Assembly: GCF_050624435.1 (NCBI RefSeq)
Contig: NC_134541.1
Span: 99,320,805 to 99,384,804 of the forward strand
Direction: 5' to 3'
DNA length: 64,000 bases
DNA from: Tenrec ecaudatus
Taxonomy: Eukaryota > Chordata > Mammalia > Afrosoricida > Tenrecidae
The notes beneath the pieces are model-generated. The model made no database searches, was not told the origin of the DNA, and saw only the letters and a program-made list of their open reading frames with translations. A program made the position numbers and the translations under genes. How positions within the stretch are numbered: position 1 is the stretch's first letter; the number at the start of each line of letters is the position of its first letter. Below, piece after piece: positions 4,200 to 62,545 of this stretch.

Positions 4200-5330
4200 T
4201 CAGAGTTTCTTGGCCTCGCTATGAGAGATGTGTGGTGACAGCAGCCCTGGCCTTTCCTTGGCACCAGGTGGGCTGGATCAGGGCACCACTGGCCTTTCCT
4301 TGGCACCACTGCCCAAGGGCTCAGAAGAAGGCATGTTTGGAGGGCTTCTGGAACCAGCAGGGTGGGCGTGGGGGCAGAGGTCATAGGATGAGGCCCCTCT
4401 GCCTTGGGGTGCAATGGGAGCGGACGAGGAAGGCAGGAGAGTGTCACTTTTGGTCTCGGGGGCAAGAGAGAGCTGTTAGACATGGTGAGGAGAACTTTAC
4501 CCAAAGCTGGGGTTCTCTCTCTCCGAAAGCTGGAGGTCTACTTACTTCCTGAAAACCAGCCACTGAAATCCCAGGGGGATCCAGGGAGACCCGGGACAGC
4601 CCTGGAGTGCCCTCAATGGCAACCAGTTTGGGTTTGGTTCTCTATGGCCAAGCAGGGAGTGGACAGGCCACAAGCCCTGTCACTGCCTGACGTGGTCACT
4701 AAGTAGGCGGTCCCCTGGATAACTCTTCAGACTGAAGATGCCACTGGAGATCCATGCTGGGCTTAGCAAGGGAGCCAGTCTGGGGGCTCTCTCCATCAGA
4801 ATTGAGACCAGGGGCTGCATGCAGGTGGTTATTATGGGAAATAAGACCGAGGAAAAGGAGGGGGCAACAGGAATGTCTGAAGCAACAGAAGGAGCAGAGT
4901 CCATGTAGGCACCTTATGGAGAGGTGGCCACCATGTTCTTGCCTGGAGCCCACCAAGAGCATTGGGAAGGACTCCTCGAATCGAGAGCACAAAGCAGGGG
5001 CTGTGCACCTCACTGGCCAAGGAGTGCACGCAGGTCAGACAGGCCGAGAAGGCTCCTGATGCCAGAGCCCATGTCAGAGGCAGAGCAGAGCCACAAAGCC
5101 TACCAAGCCTGAGTGCTCTCTGTCTCCACTTGAATAGCTGGTTGTCATAGCAACAGATGAACTATAAAAAGAGGAGGTGAGGGGCAAGAGGTACCAGAGG
5201 TCAAAGTGGTCACTGGGCATTCTCTGTCTGGGGACTCTTTGCCTCTGTGCACCAAGAGGTGGCAATTTGGGAATGGTGAGTCTCCCCCACCAAGGCCATT
5301 ACCTTGTGCAGTCTCAACCTTTTCCCACCT
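4200..5330. other. No feature recognised; small tandem duplication near 4250-4310
   Basis: No exon or named repeat seen. 'ctggcctttccttggcacca' occurs twice about 41 bases apart (near 4248 and 4289). Several overlapping open frames are short and have no recognisable domain. Confidence 0.45.
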
Positions 5331-7944: not shown

Positions 7945-8022
7945 ACTCATTTCCTTTTCCACCCAGCCCACTGGGTTACCAGCTCAATGCTTAACCACTA
8001 TGACACCACGGTCCCTTTGCAT
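7945..8022 (-). repeat. AfroSINE 5' fragment, antisense
   Basis: 'cttaaccactatgacaccac' ahead of 'ggtccctttg' is the antisense AfroSINE head; the rest has decayed. Confidence 0.45.
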
Positions 8023-14358: not shown

Positions 14359-15530
14359 GTGTGGGGGGCGTAGGATGTCTGGTGGGGCTTGATCAAGGGC
14401 AATGTAGCTGAGAGGAATTACTGAAACTCAAATGAAGGCCGAACATGATAATGGGACAAGAGGAAAGTCAAAGGAAATAGAGTAAACAACTAGTAGTCAA
14501 AGGGCATTTATAGAGGTCTAAATACAGGCATGTACATATGTAAATATATTTATATAAAATGATAGGGAAATAGATCTATGTGCGTATACTTATATGTTAA
14601 GGCAGCAGATGAACATCGGGCCTCTACTCAAGTACTCCCTCAATGCAAGAACACTTTGTTCTAATCACCGGCATTCTGCGATGCTCACCTTCCCAACATG
14701 ATCGCTGAAGATAAAATGGGTGCATAAGCAAATATGGTGAAGAAAACTGATGGTGCCTGGCTATCAAAAGATATACTGTCTGAGGTCTTATAGGCTTGAA
14801 GATAAACACATAGCCATCTAGCTGAGATGCATCTAAGCCCACATGGAGGAAGCATGTGATCATGAGGTGTCGATAAGACCAGGTATCAGGCATCAAAGCC
14901 CCAGAACAAAAATATATATATATATCAATATGAAAAAGGGGGAGTGAAGAGTGGAGACCCAAACCCCATCTGTAGACAATTGGACATCCCCTTACATAAG
15001 AGTAACAAACAAGAGATGAGCTAGTCAGGGTATAGTATGACACTGATGAAACATACAACTTTCCTCTAGTTTTTTAATGCTTCCTACCCCCCACTATCAT
15101 GACCCCAATTTTACCTTACAAATCTGGCTAGACCATAGTATATAGACCGGTACAGATAAGGGCTCCAAACACAGGGAATCCAGGACAGATAGACTCCTAC
15201 CAATAATGAGAGTAGCAATATCAGGAGAGTAGGGGGAAGGTGGGGGAAGAAAGAAGGAGCTGATCACAATGATCAGGGGGACAAACAATAGAAGGTGAAG
15301 GGAAACAGTGGATGATTTCAGATATAAAAATATTAATTTATAATTTATCAAGGGTTCATGATGGAGGGAAGGAGGGGAAAATGAGGAGCTGATACCAAGA
15401 GCTCAAGTAGAAAAAATATTTTGAAAATAATGATGGCAACATAAGTACAAAAGTGCTTGACACAATAGATGGATGTATGAATTGTGATAAGAGCTATAAG
15501 AGCCACCAATAAAATGATTTTTTAAAAAAA
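14359..15530 (+). repeat. L1-type 3' UTR insertion (type B) inside RTE
   Basis: About 1.2 kb interrupts the RTE copy. It holds 'gatggtgcctggctatcaaa' and 'agcccacatggaggaagc', then the blocks shared with 16022-16484 ('aaacacagggaatccagga', 'atttatcaagggttcatga', 'ttgtgataagagctataag'). It ends 'caataaaatga' plus A-rich tail, as a polyadenylated LINE would. I see no clean target duplication. Confidence 0.7.
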
Positions 15531-15915
15531 GATGTTACTTTGAGAACTAAGGTGCACCTGACCCAAGCCATGGTATTCTCCATTGCCTCACGTGCATGTG
15601 AGTGTTGGACATTGAATAAAGAGGACTGTCTTGGAAGAATTATGGCCACAGCGCTCTTTAGAGGCAAGGATAGAGAACTTAGTACATGTTGTCAGAAGAG
15701 ACCAGTCCCTGGAGAAAGGCACCGTGTTTAGTAAAGCAGAAGGGCAGTGAAGGAGAGGAAGGCCTCAAGGAGATGGATTGACACAGTGGCTGAAACCATG
15801 GGCTCAATCCCAGGAACAATTGTGAGGATGGTGCAGAAATGAACAGGATTTCCTTCTGTTGTGCCAGGGGTCGCTATGAGCTGAAACCAACTCTATGGCA
15901 CCTAACAACAAGAAG
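15531..15915 (+). repeat. RTE LINE, right part of the split copy, to the 3' end
   Basis: Resumes at 'gatgttactttgagaact', 'ctgacccaagccatggtatt', then 'agaccagtccctggagaaag' and the 3' end 'tggcacctaacaacaagaag'. Its uninterrupted 'ccatggtattctccattgcc' is the empty-site reference for the SINE-head insertion at 60645. Confidence 0.85.
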
Positions 15916-15919
15916 CAGC

Positions 15920-16590
15920 AGCAACATGGGTGTAATTATGTAGCTATCCAGCACCAGATCATATGCCATCTAACTTGGGAGAAAGATGAGGTAGTATGAT
16001 CCTATAAAGATACAGACTTGGCTGGCTAGACCAGAGCATGTACACTGGTACAGATAGGAACTGGAAACACAGGGAATCCAGAACACATGATCCCTTCAGG
16101 ACCTGGGGTGTGAGTGGCGATACTGGGAGGGGTAGAGGGAGGGTGGATTGGAAAGGGGGAATACATTACAAGGATCTACATGCGCCCTCCTCCCTGGGGG
16201 ATGGACAACAGAAGAGTGGGTGAAGGGAGACGTCGGACAGGGCAAGATGTGACAAAATAATCATTTACAAATTATCAAGAGCTCACGAGGGAGGGGTGAG
16301 CGGGGAGGGAGGGAAAAATGAGGACCTGATGCCAGGGGCTTAAGTGGAGAGCAAATGTTTTGAGAACGATGAGGGCAATGAATGTACAAATGTGCTTTAC
16401 ACAATTGATGTATGTATAGATTGTGATAAGAGGTGTATAAGCCCCTAATAGAATGATTACAAAAGAAAGAAAAAGACAAAAAAAACAGACTTGGAAAAAC
16501 TACAGAGCAGCTCTACTACTCTGGATTGTATTGTATAGGGTCACTAGGAAGCTGAATCAACCTGACAGCCATGGCGGATTTTATACCACC
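15920..16590 (+). repeat. AfroSINE, sense, split by an L1 3' end
   Basis: The left part, 'gagaaagatgaggtagtatg' and 'cctataaagatacagacttgg', continues after 16484 as 'acagacttggaaaaactaca' and 'gagcagctctactactctgg'. Rejoining the two parts restores the AfroSINE order. Confidence 0.8.
16022..16484 (+). mobile_element. 5'-truncated L1-type element with target duplication
   Basis: The insert runs from 'ctggctagaccagagcatg' to an A-rich tail after 'ctaatagaatgatta'. It is flanked by 'acagacttgg' at 16012-16021 and again at 16485-16494, a 10-bp target-site duplication inside an AfroSINE. This identifies the recurring non-coding 3' sequence as a LINE moved by target-primed reverse transcription. 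Related 3' ends lie at 14359-15530 and 34137-34280. Confidence 0.8.
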
Positions 16591-49546: not shown

Positions 49547-49641
49547 GGCAGCCCAGTACTTCCTGTGGGCATCTCTGACCCTCCCTAAGGATGTGGCAGC
49601 CCAGAACTTCCTGTGTGGGCATCTCTGACCCTAAGGATGCC
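49547..49641. repeat. Two-copy 48-bp tandem duplication
   Basis: 'ggcagcccagtacttcctgt' (49547) and 'ggcagcccagaacttcctgt' (49595) begin two near-identical units that each continue 'gggcatctctgaccct...aaggatg'. Confidence 0.85.
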
Positions 49642-53156: not shown

Positions 53157-53440
53157 CCAGCTCCTGCTACCTCATGGGGCACGTGTCACCTCAGGGTGCA
53201 TGTGCTAACATTGGGGGGGGTGTGCTACCTTGTGGGGCATGTGTCACCTCGGGGTGTATGTGTCACCTCGGGGTGTATGTGTTAACCTTGGGGTACATGT
53301 GTCACCTCGGGGTGTATGTGTCACCTAGGTGTGTATGTGTTAACCTTGGGGTACATGTGTCACCTCAGGGTGTATGTGTCACCTAGGGGTGTATGTGTTA
53401 ACCTTGGAGTACATGTGTCACCTCGGGTACATGTGGATAC
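53157..53440. repeat. Minisatellite with a 58-bp higher-order unit
   Basis: Monomers of 19-20 bases ('gtgtcacctcggggtgtat', 'gtgttaaccttggggtacat') are arranged three to a unit. 'ttaaccttgg' recurs at 53282, 53340 and 53398, exactly 58 apart. The open frame across it is a by-product of the repeat. Confidence 0.9.
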
Positions 53441-60434: not shown

Positions 60435-61110
60435 TAACGTCATGAGCAGTGGAGGAAAGACAGCAGTTGTCAAGGATTCCATCTTGCTTGGATCCACAAG
60501 CAATGCTCAGGAAAGCAGCAGTCGAGAGGTCACATGGGACACTGCATTGGGTAAATCTGCTGCACAAGACATCTTTAGAGTATCGAAGAGCAAGGATGTT
60601 ACTTTGAGGACTAAAGTGTGTCTGACCCAAGCCATGGTATTTTTGGTTAACAGCCTAACACTTACATCACTGTGCTATCTGAGCTCCTTGTAAAGCCATG
60701 GTATTTTTAATTGCCTCACGTGCACATGAAAGTTGGGTATTGAATAAGGAAGACTGAAGAAGAATCAGTGCATTTGAATGGTGTGCTGGTGAAGAACATT
60801 GATAAAGTCCGGGGACTGCCAAAAGGACAAATCAAACTGTCTTGGAAGAAGTACTGCCAGAATGCTCCTTAGAGGCAACAATGGTGAGACTTTGTCTCAT
60901 GTGCTTTGAACAGGTTATCAGCAGAGACCAGTTCCAGGAGAAGGGCATCTTGCTTGGTAAAGCAGAGGGGCAGCGAAAAAGAGGAAGGCTTGTGACCAGA
61001 TGGATCGATGCTGCAACAATGGGCTCGAACGTAAGAACTCTGGTGAGGACGGCCCAGGACTGGTCCGTGTTCTGTTCACTCTAAGTTGGAGCTGATTCGA
61101 CAGCACCAAG
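60435..61110 (+). repeat. RTE LINE 3' portion, sense, carrying a SINE-head insertion
   Basis: 'gcttggatccacaagcaatg', 'aaatctgctgcacaagacat', 'tctgacccaagccatggtat', 'cttggaagaagtactgccag', 'cagagaccagttccaggaga' and the end 'gattcgacagcaccaagtaa'. Apart from the insert at 60645-60692 it is collinear with 14300-14358 plus 15531-15915. Confidence 0.9.
60645..60692 (-). mobile_element. 3'-truncated AfroSINE head with perfect 16-bp target duplication
   Basis: A 48-base insert reads on the minus strand 'caaggagctcagatagcaca' and 'gtgatgtaagtgttaggctg', then 'ttaacc': the first ~45 bases of AfroSINE, stopping just after box A. 'aagccatggtattttt' lies directly on both sides (60629-60644 and 60693-60708). 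There is no SINE body and no tail. The target on the minus strand is TT|AAAA, the L1-type nick site. Confidence 0.9.
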
Positions 61111-61934: not shown

Positions 61935-62545
61935 CACGCACATACCATACACGTACAGCACACACACTATACACACACCACACATATCACACACAGGAAC
62001 ACACCATACACACACAACCACACACACCACACATACACATCACATATCACACACATATATCACGCATACCACATATATACCAAACACACCACAGATCACA
62101 CACACCCAAGCACACACATACCACACACATGCACATCATACACACACACCACACACAAACCACACACCATACACATACAACACGGACACCACACACACAC
62201 ACCACACACATATATCACACATACCATATATATACCAAACACACCACAGATCACATACACCCAAACACACACATACCACACACATGCACATCATACACAC
62301 ACACCACACACAAACCACACACCATACACATACAACACGGACACCACACACACACCACACACATATATCACACATACCACATATATACCAAACACACCAC
62401 AGATCACACACACACCACACACAGCCAAACATACACATACCACACATACGCACATCACACACACACACCACACACCATACACATACATACACCACACAGA
62501 CACACAATACATAACCCCCCACACATACACGCATATCACATCACA
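61935..62545. repeat. CA-rich satellite with a ~154-bp higher-order unit
   Basis: About 600 bases of degenerate CACA/CATA motifs. A longer unit marked by 'ccacagatcaca' starts at about 62092, 62247 and 62400 (spacing 155 and 153). The first two units are almost identical, even at 'acaacacggacacc' and 'ataccaaacacacca'. Long His/Thr frames on the plus strand and Val/Cys frames on the minus strand are products of the repeat. Confidence 0.9.

Follow-up and report, generated by a model that had tools for sequence, protein, structure and literature searches.

A probable tailless retropseudogene of an AfroSINE-type SINE inside an RTE-type LINE fragment of Tenrec ecaudatus

Results

A 48-bp insert between perfect 16-bp repeats in an RTE copy

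Within the window, by which we mean the whole 64,000-nucleotide stretch of Tenrec ecaudatus DNA analyzed here, the 3′ fragment of an RTE-type LINE is interrupted by a 48-bp segment that corresponds, on the minus strand, to the head of a SINE (Table 1). The true start of this host fragment may lie to the left of position 60590 and, with the 48-bp segment omitted, its sequence agrees with the consensus of the RTE copies of the window at 348 of 405 bases. The segment is the spacer between two copies of the 16-mer AAGCCATGGTATTTTT, which is present exactly twice in the window; the two copies are identical at 16/16 positions and cannot be extended to the left or to the right. Read on the minus strand, the insert runs from TACAAGGAG to CTGTTAACC and can be written as TACAA followed by GGAGCTCAGATAGCACAGTGATGTAAGTGTTAGGCTGTTAACC. 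These exact and nonextendable repeats bear out a preliminary description of this DNA, which had claimed a 48-base insert between perfect 16-bp duplications.

Table 1. Positions of the insert, its flanks, and the RTE-type copies in the window
Feature	Position	Strand	Basis
Target-site duplication copy 1, AAGCCATGGTATTTTT	60629..60644	+	Exact 16/16 repeat
48-bp insert	60645..60692	-	Repeat pair, masked-locus profile, shuffle test
SINE head, consensus 1-42 (GGAG...AACC)	60645..60687	-	Alignment; profile match 1-50 extends into the A-run of the duplication
5′ junction bases TACAA	60688..60692	-	CAA common to L002, TA extra; alignments
Target-site duplication copy 2	60693..60708	+	Exact repeat
Putative first-strand nick TTTTT/AA (minus strand TT/AAAAA)	60704..60710	+	Sequence; motif as quoted from Kojima 2010 and Noll 2015
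Host RTE-type LINE 3′ fragment holding the insert	60590..61107	+	Profile match to window RTE copies; genome-copy alignments from 60590
Paralogous RTE copy, site uninterrupted	15566..15902	+	Profile match and alignment across the site

On its own, the 16-mer pair is only suggestive, since the window contains 56 exact direct-repeat pairs of at least 16 bp at spacings of 20-2000, most of them in simple repeats or tandem arrays; what decides is the presence of empty paralogues. Besides the 16-mers of the insert, pairs outside simple repeats are located at ~4247, 15167, 38068, and 49564. The first of these (4247-4311) is a 20-bp exact pair at a distance of 42, called as a weak 20-bp tandem, and the last (~49564-49633) is a 19-bp exact pair at a distance of 50 that looks like a local duplication of ~50 bp. 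The window also holds a minisatellite at 53183-53435 (58-bp unit, 4.4 copies) and a CA-rich array at 62036-62506 (155-bp unit, 3.1 copies). The preliminary description had itself named two findings that would speak against an insertion. The first, an origin of the flanking 16-mers in a larger tandem duplication, was rejected: nothing but the 16-mers is repeated, tandem-array detection gave nothing at the site, and a single 16-mer-like stretch is present in other RTE copies.

The second, that most RTE copies carry the segment, was rejected on the RTE paralogues. Three other RTE copies of the window span the insertion point without the insert, at 15540, 11790, and 46790 (minus strand), and all six genome loci retrieved through their resemblance to the flanking sequence score higher for the joined-flank (empty) version than for the filled one. 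The empty form is clear across the site in four of these loci (L005-L008); the alignment of L003 stops two bases past the duplication, and that of L004 is gapped soon after it. Furthermore, five places in the genome, one of which is L005, match both flanks with coordinates overlapping by 15-20 bases, as is the case for the empty form, and among the 40 of 1085 candidates that were scored, no listed place except the window has a SINE head at that RTE position. The 48-bp form is an insertion, a point settled by the empty paralogues. The RTE copy at 15531-15915, previously singled out as uninterrupted, is indeed one of the three empty window copies. The accompanying statement that pre- and post-insertion states are both visible applies to RTE copies with an empty site, which are paralogues and not the ancestral or orthologous allele.

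The insert covers the first 42 positions of a SINE model

We built the SINE family de novo from 182 matched segments in 264 kb of sequence, the window together with twenty pieces of 10 kb from contig C1; the alignment comprises 143 sequences from these 264 kb, and the resulting model has 200 positions. The family, which we take to be AfroSINE, is composed of a tRNA-like head plus a body common to many copies. A SINE profile from which the insert locus was masked still finds the insert (E=5.6e-4 over 64 kb), and its score in the alignment to the consensus was equaled by 0 of 20,000 shuffles. The insert covers model positions 1-42 and agrees with the consensus at 33 of 42 aligned bases plus one gap, as derived from the alignment score; positions 43-200 are missing. 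It ends ~20 nt past box A, where the tRNA-like head has its anticodon-like hairpin, and the first 2-5 bases of the insert (TA or TACAA) fall outside the SINE consensus. The earlier identification of the insert as the start of AfroSINE ending just past box A is correct as to the SINE head and needs amending on these last two points. Box B, body, and tail are all absent from the product, a dead-on-arrival copy.

Other small RNAs were considered as direct sources and rejected. No match in the window exceeds an Rfam gathering score, and no tRNA match at E≤5 exists at the site, where only a chance-level match to nuoG appeared and where the SINE copy L002 described below is a far better match. ARAGORN (bacterial settings) found no tRNA gene in the window.

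A full-length SINE copy as the probable source

In the 3.9-Gb assembly, a 24-nt pattern taken from the head, with ≤2 mismatches allowed, has three matches, and these were recovered, with no others, when 60 nt were searched at E≤10. They are the window, a locus on C41 (L002), and a locus on C55 (L053); match counts of this repeat search are lower bounds, and an unlisted sister copy is possible. L002 (C41:191961403-191961584, minus strand) is a full-length SINE (model 1-195, 97 bits) with which the insert shares 44 of 46 bases, or 41 of 43 within the SINE part. The best of 84 sampled SINE heads reaches 32/43 against the insert, and none of 3486 pairs of heads reaches 41 (best, 38). L053 has some of the same states as the insert, with more differences. 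Given a match of 44/46 compared with at most 32/43 in the sampled heads, the insert would derive from L002 or from a lost twin of it. L002, a full-length old SINE, is thus the probable source, with copying presumably directed from donor to insert.

The target site is of the L1 type, and the duplication differs from those of full-length SINEs

On the minus strand, the site reads AATT/AAAAATACC, which corresponds to TTTTT/AA on the primer strand. The targets given for L1 and for tailless retropseudogenes are TT/AAAA and TT/WAAAAWW (Noll 2015, PMC5322556), and the site TT/AAAAATA conforms to the latter, in support of the L1-type target TT/AAAA proposed in the preliminary description.

As a yardstick for ordinary insertions of the family, we looked for target-site duplications (TSDs) around 61 full-length SINEs of the 264 kb; eight of these SINEs have one that scores ≥9, compared with 0.2 expected by re-pairing. 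The TSDs of these eight copies are 9-14 bp long and begin with T in six cases, with C in one, with G in one, and with A in none. A T-stretch ~10 nt upstream of the TSD has been described as the RTE-type signature (PMC13295347). Five of the eight controls have a run of ≥3 T within 22 nt before the TSD, four of them at the ~10-nt place. No run of three T is present within 22 nt before the TSD of the insert; this is true of the remaining three controls as well, and two controls are poorer in T over this interval than the insert is. Measured by this yardstick of n=8, the insert displays neither the upstream T-stretch nor the RTE-type TSD of RTE-style AfroSINE insertions.

Priming inside the source RNA or a later deletion

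For the family head, both consensus versions are predicted to fold such that AAAA or ACAA, the tetranucleotide following ..AACC, makes up the loop of a hairpin (z -3.6 and -4.3, respectively, for the two versions). In one predicted fold of the L002 RNA, which overall is no better than shuffles (z 0.8), the endpoint is located inside a 14-nt unpaired stretch (AACCCAAAACUCAG). On predicted folds only, then, the insert ends in a single-stranded, A-rich region of its source. An A-run of ≥4 after AACC occurs in 11 of 110 SINE copies, while the consensus more often has ACAA or GCAA; since so few copies carry the run, pairing with a T-run depends on the parent copy. L002 has such a run.

We propose the following course of events. 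RNA would have been transcribed from one old SINE copy, likeliest L002 or a lost twin, and an L1 ORF2-type protein would have introduced a nick into the host RTE copy on the plus strand, at 5′-TTTTT/AA-3′. The freed T-run, that is, the T5 end of duplication copy 1 (60629-60644) as the putative primer, would then have annealed to the internal A-run after ..GCUAACC of the SINE RNA, a stretch without predicted base pairing, and from there reverse transcription would have proceeded to the 5′ end of the RNA. Finally, two or so bases may have been added at the 5′ junction, and a second cut 16 bp away would have given rise to the duplication. With the donor AACCCAAAAC, TTTT would pair with AAAA, the last T would be placed opposite C (a T.C mismatch), and extension from the next C would produce the GG seen at the junction. 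L1 reverse transcriptase tolerates such a terminal mismatch. Among published insertions, 14.6% of 5′-truncated L1, 11.7% of 5′-truncated Alu, and 12.4% of full-length Alu are reported to carry additional bases at this junction (PMC2912911).

Both the enzyme and the RNA intermediate are inferred. We consider it likely that an AfroSINE-type SINE has here given rise to a tailless retropseudogene, by target-primed reverse transcription of the L1 type with priming internal to the RNA of a degenerate copy. The insertion, its taillessness, and the tailless-retropseudogene route had all been part of the preliminary description, and they are supported by the TSD, the empty paralogues, the endpoint, and the target motif. 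The 3′-truncated source RNA that it had invoked is not needed: because the endpoint coincides with A-containing sequence inside the RNA that should be unpaired according to the fold predictions, an intact RNA primed internally is the better fit, in line with the internal priming at single-stranded, A-preferring sites, with a TT/WAAAAWW target and no A tail, described in Noll 2015 (PMC5322556).

Alternatively, a full-length L002-like SINE might have inserted with the 16-bp TSD and have lost its body and tail later, by microhomology-mediated deletion between its internal A-run and the A-run with which the 3′ TSD starts. The same A-run is indeed present at both would-be break points, and recombination between internal and terminal A-stretches has been found hard to separate from internal priming in Alu (Noll 2015, PMC5322556). 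Truncated copies without a clear TSD also occur, as the 264 kb contain seven 5′-complete SINE copies that end before position 125, three of which, the insert included, end at consensus 42-44, and a clear TSD is seen only in the present insert. However, such a deletion would have had to end exactly at the TSD, and the 16-bp TSD would have had to start with A, which none of the eight TSD-bearing full-length copies does. Moreover, the tails of these SINEs are T/G-rich rather than A-rich, and a deletion derivative of L002 would keep three Cs ahead of the A-run, barring a further change at one C, where the insert has two. We therefore regard a later deletion as unlikely.

A search for sister cases

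The preliminary description had suggested a search for further TSD-flanked heads, and this search, run on the 264 kb and on 20 of 26 matches to a genome pattern, returned no second clear case. By region, a clear TSD accompanies one of three 5′-complete truncated copies in the window and none of four in the independent 200 kb; the unbiased count is 0/4, because the window was chosen for the present case. The nearest candidate (L028) is a weak 10-nt TSD with one mismatch, located 20 nt past the end of the copy. Two SINE heads stop at positions 43-44, at 7972-8011 of the window and at L011:2338-2381; neither shows a clear TSD, and both were kept out of the count of sister events. The genome pattern, GGGCTGCTAACC followed by AAAAA and C/T, gave 26 matches, and a TSD was found in none of the 20 inspected (best score, 6); judged by eye, all of these 20 but about two (L034 and L048) run on into the SINE body. 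The pattern would miss the present insert itself, since it demands exact GGGCTGCTAACC plus five As.

Relative ages of the families and the likely machinery

AfroSINEs were taken to rely on L1 in a 2007 paper (PMC1764860) and were assigned to RTE in later ones (PMC3747384, table; Noll 2015, PMC5322556). For the L1 ORF1 domain, all 150 scored matches (of 15,428 candidates) lie over the cut-off and are stop-free inside the match, mostly in open frames of 423 codons. A 36-nt stretch of the SINE consensus has one exact match in the genome, which is a rough sign of age only, given that the stretch contains several CpGs and comes from a sample consensus. Pairwise identity among the host and the RTE copies L003-L008 ranges over 68-79% (21 pairs), and a 35-nt RTE stretch has 921 exact matches in the genome, so that some RTE sequence is less decayed or has been amplified. 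This 35-nt stretch recurs dozens of times, tens to hundreds of kilobases apart, at C1:288.3-295.6 Mb and also on C6, C7, and C8; the matches on C1 are mostly on one strand, as if a large RTE-bearing segment had been amplified as an array (921 counted, ~100 listed). The insert and its donor differ at 2 of 46 bases, too few sites for a precise date and far below the family spread. Overall, the insertion appears to postdate the spread of AfroSINE and would belong to a period in which L1 was the more probable machinery. Taking the target motif together with the relative ages of the families, L1 most likely made the insert. The idea that L1-type machinery can mobilize AfroSINE, put forward in the preliminary description, gains one head fragment, probably made by L1; as a wider claim it has no second TSD-flanked case among the sequences searched.

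Conceivably, the insertion was instead the work of the usual partner of AfroSINE, RTE-type machinery that stopped or started short on the RNA. The later assignment of AfroSINEs to RTE mobilization would agree with this, and the 921 exact matches leave room for late RTE activity. Against it, the length and first base of the TSD are unlike those of the eight RTE-style cases and the upstream T-stretch is missing; AfroSINE and the RTE copies compared are old, yet the insert and the donor differ at so few positions. In addition, a 3′-truncated template would not have the shared 3′ tail that RTE probably needs. An RTE origin is, in our view, very unlikely. Repair of a staggered double-strand break with a DNA fragment from the L002 locus (templated insertion), to which we give hardly any weight, would equally leave a single identifiable donor locus, but the copied stretch runs from the SINE 5′ end (±3 bases) to the A-rich RNA stretch, RNA boundaries that a DNA patch is not expected to respect, and the break has the L1 motif.

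Discussion

Tailless retropseudogenes of tRNAs and tRNA-related SINEs have been known since 2004 (Schmitz 2004, via PMC3747384 and PMC2912911; Noll 2015, PMC5322556), and SINE-derived tailless copies have already been published (PMC3747384; PMC5322556). The insert resembles the members of this class in several respects. It is 5′ complete, starting at consensus position 1 with 5 junction bases, where the class shows a near-complete 5′ end (overhang of ≤5 nt, more for tRNA sources). It has a perfect TSD, whose 16/16 exact bases fall within the 8-35 nt of the class, and a TT/AAAA-like target. With 48 bp, it is longer than the 30 nt that is the minimum for the class and has no A tail, and its 3′ truncation, far above 10 nt, is located at a predicted single-stranded, A-containing stretch. 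Its identity to the source consensus is above 69%, and bases of the source RNA can pair with the target T-run. In contrast to the published tailless retropseudogenes, its source SINE is now assigned to RTE and not to L1, and a probable individual source copy can be named, which we have not seen in the literature compared.

The insert is likewise similar to internally primed Alu monomers (PMC5322556; PMC5059674), which are 3′-truncated SINE copies whose synthesis was primed internally, within A-rich sequence; Alu depends on L1, whereas the source SINE here is assigned to RTE. With ordinary AfroSINE/RTE1 insertions (PMC13295347), it shares the SINE family and the 5′ end, but it differs in TSD length, first base of the TSD, and target motif and in having no body, box B, or tail. 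No title reporting a tailless copy of AfroSINE was found in the literature searched, a body of work that leaves most subscription papers outside. What is new here is the combination of an RTE-assigned SINE as the source and a nameable probable parent, while the type of event itself is known.

It is tempting to speculate that, after the spread of AfroSINE and RTE had ended, decayed single copies were still transcribed and were caught by L1, giving rise to head-only offspring with nameable parents, a scenario to which we assign somewhat less than an even chance. If it is true, such parent-offspring pairs would be dated records of dead SINE loci that were transcribed in the germ line. As one case of a class known since 2004, the insert leaves the general picture unchanged by itself. 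Its value is that the target site, the priming site, and the probable parent can all be read from the sequence, in a genome where the usual partner of the SINE is RTE. Should head-only copies at TT/AAAA sites with nameable parents recur, the trans-activity of L1 would become separable from RTE activity, and the copies would report on the germ-line transcription of individual old SINEs.

Other retroposon insertions are present in the sampled sequence. Two A-tailed insertions were found, one of which (836 bp, L011:2391-3268, A15) has a 15-bp TSD at ATT/AAAAG, while the other is located at AAC/AGAAGG and not at TT/AAAA. The 3′ end of an A-tailed retroposon, with AATAAA just before the tail, has 39 copies in the 264 kb, among them the 836-bp insertion and those at 16336-16458 and 15400-15519 of the window, and is possibly the 3′ end of the local L1.
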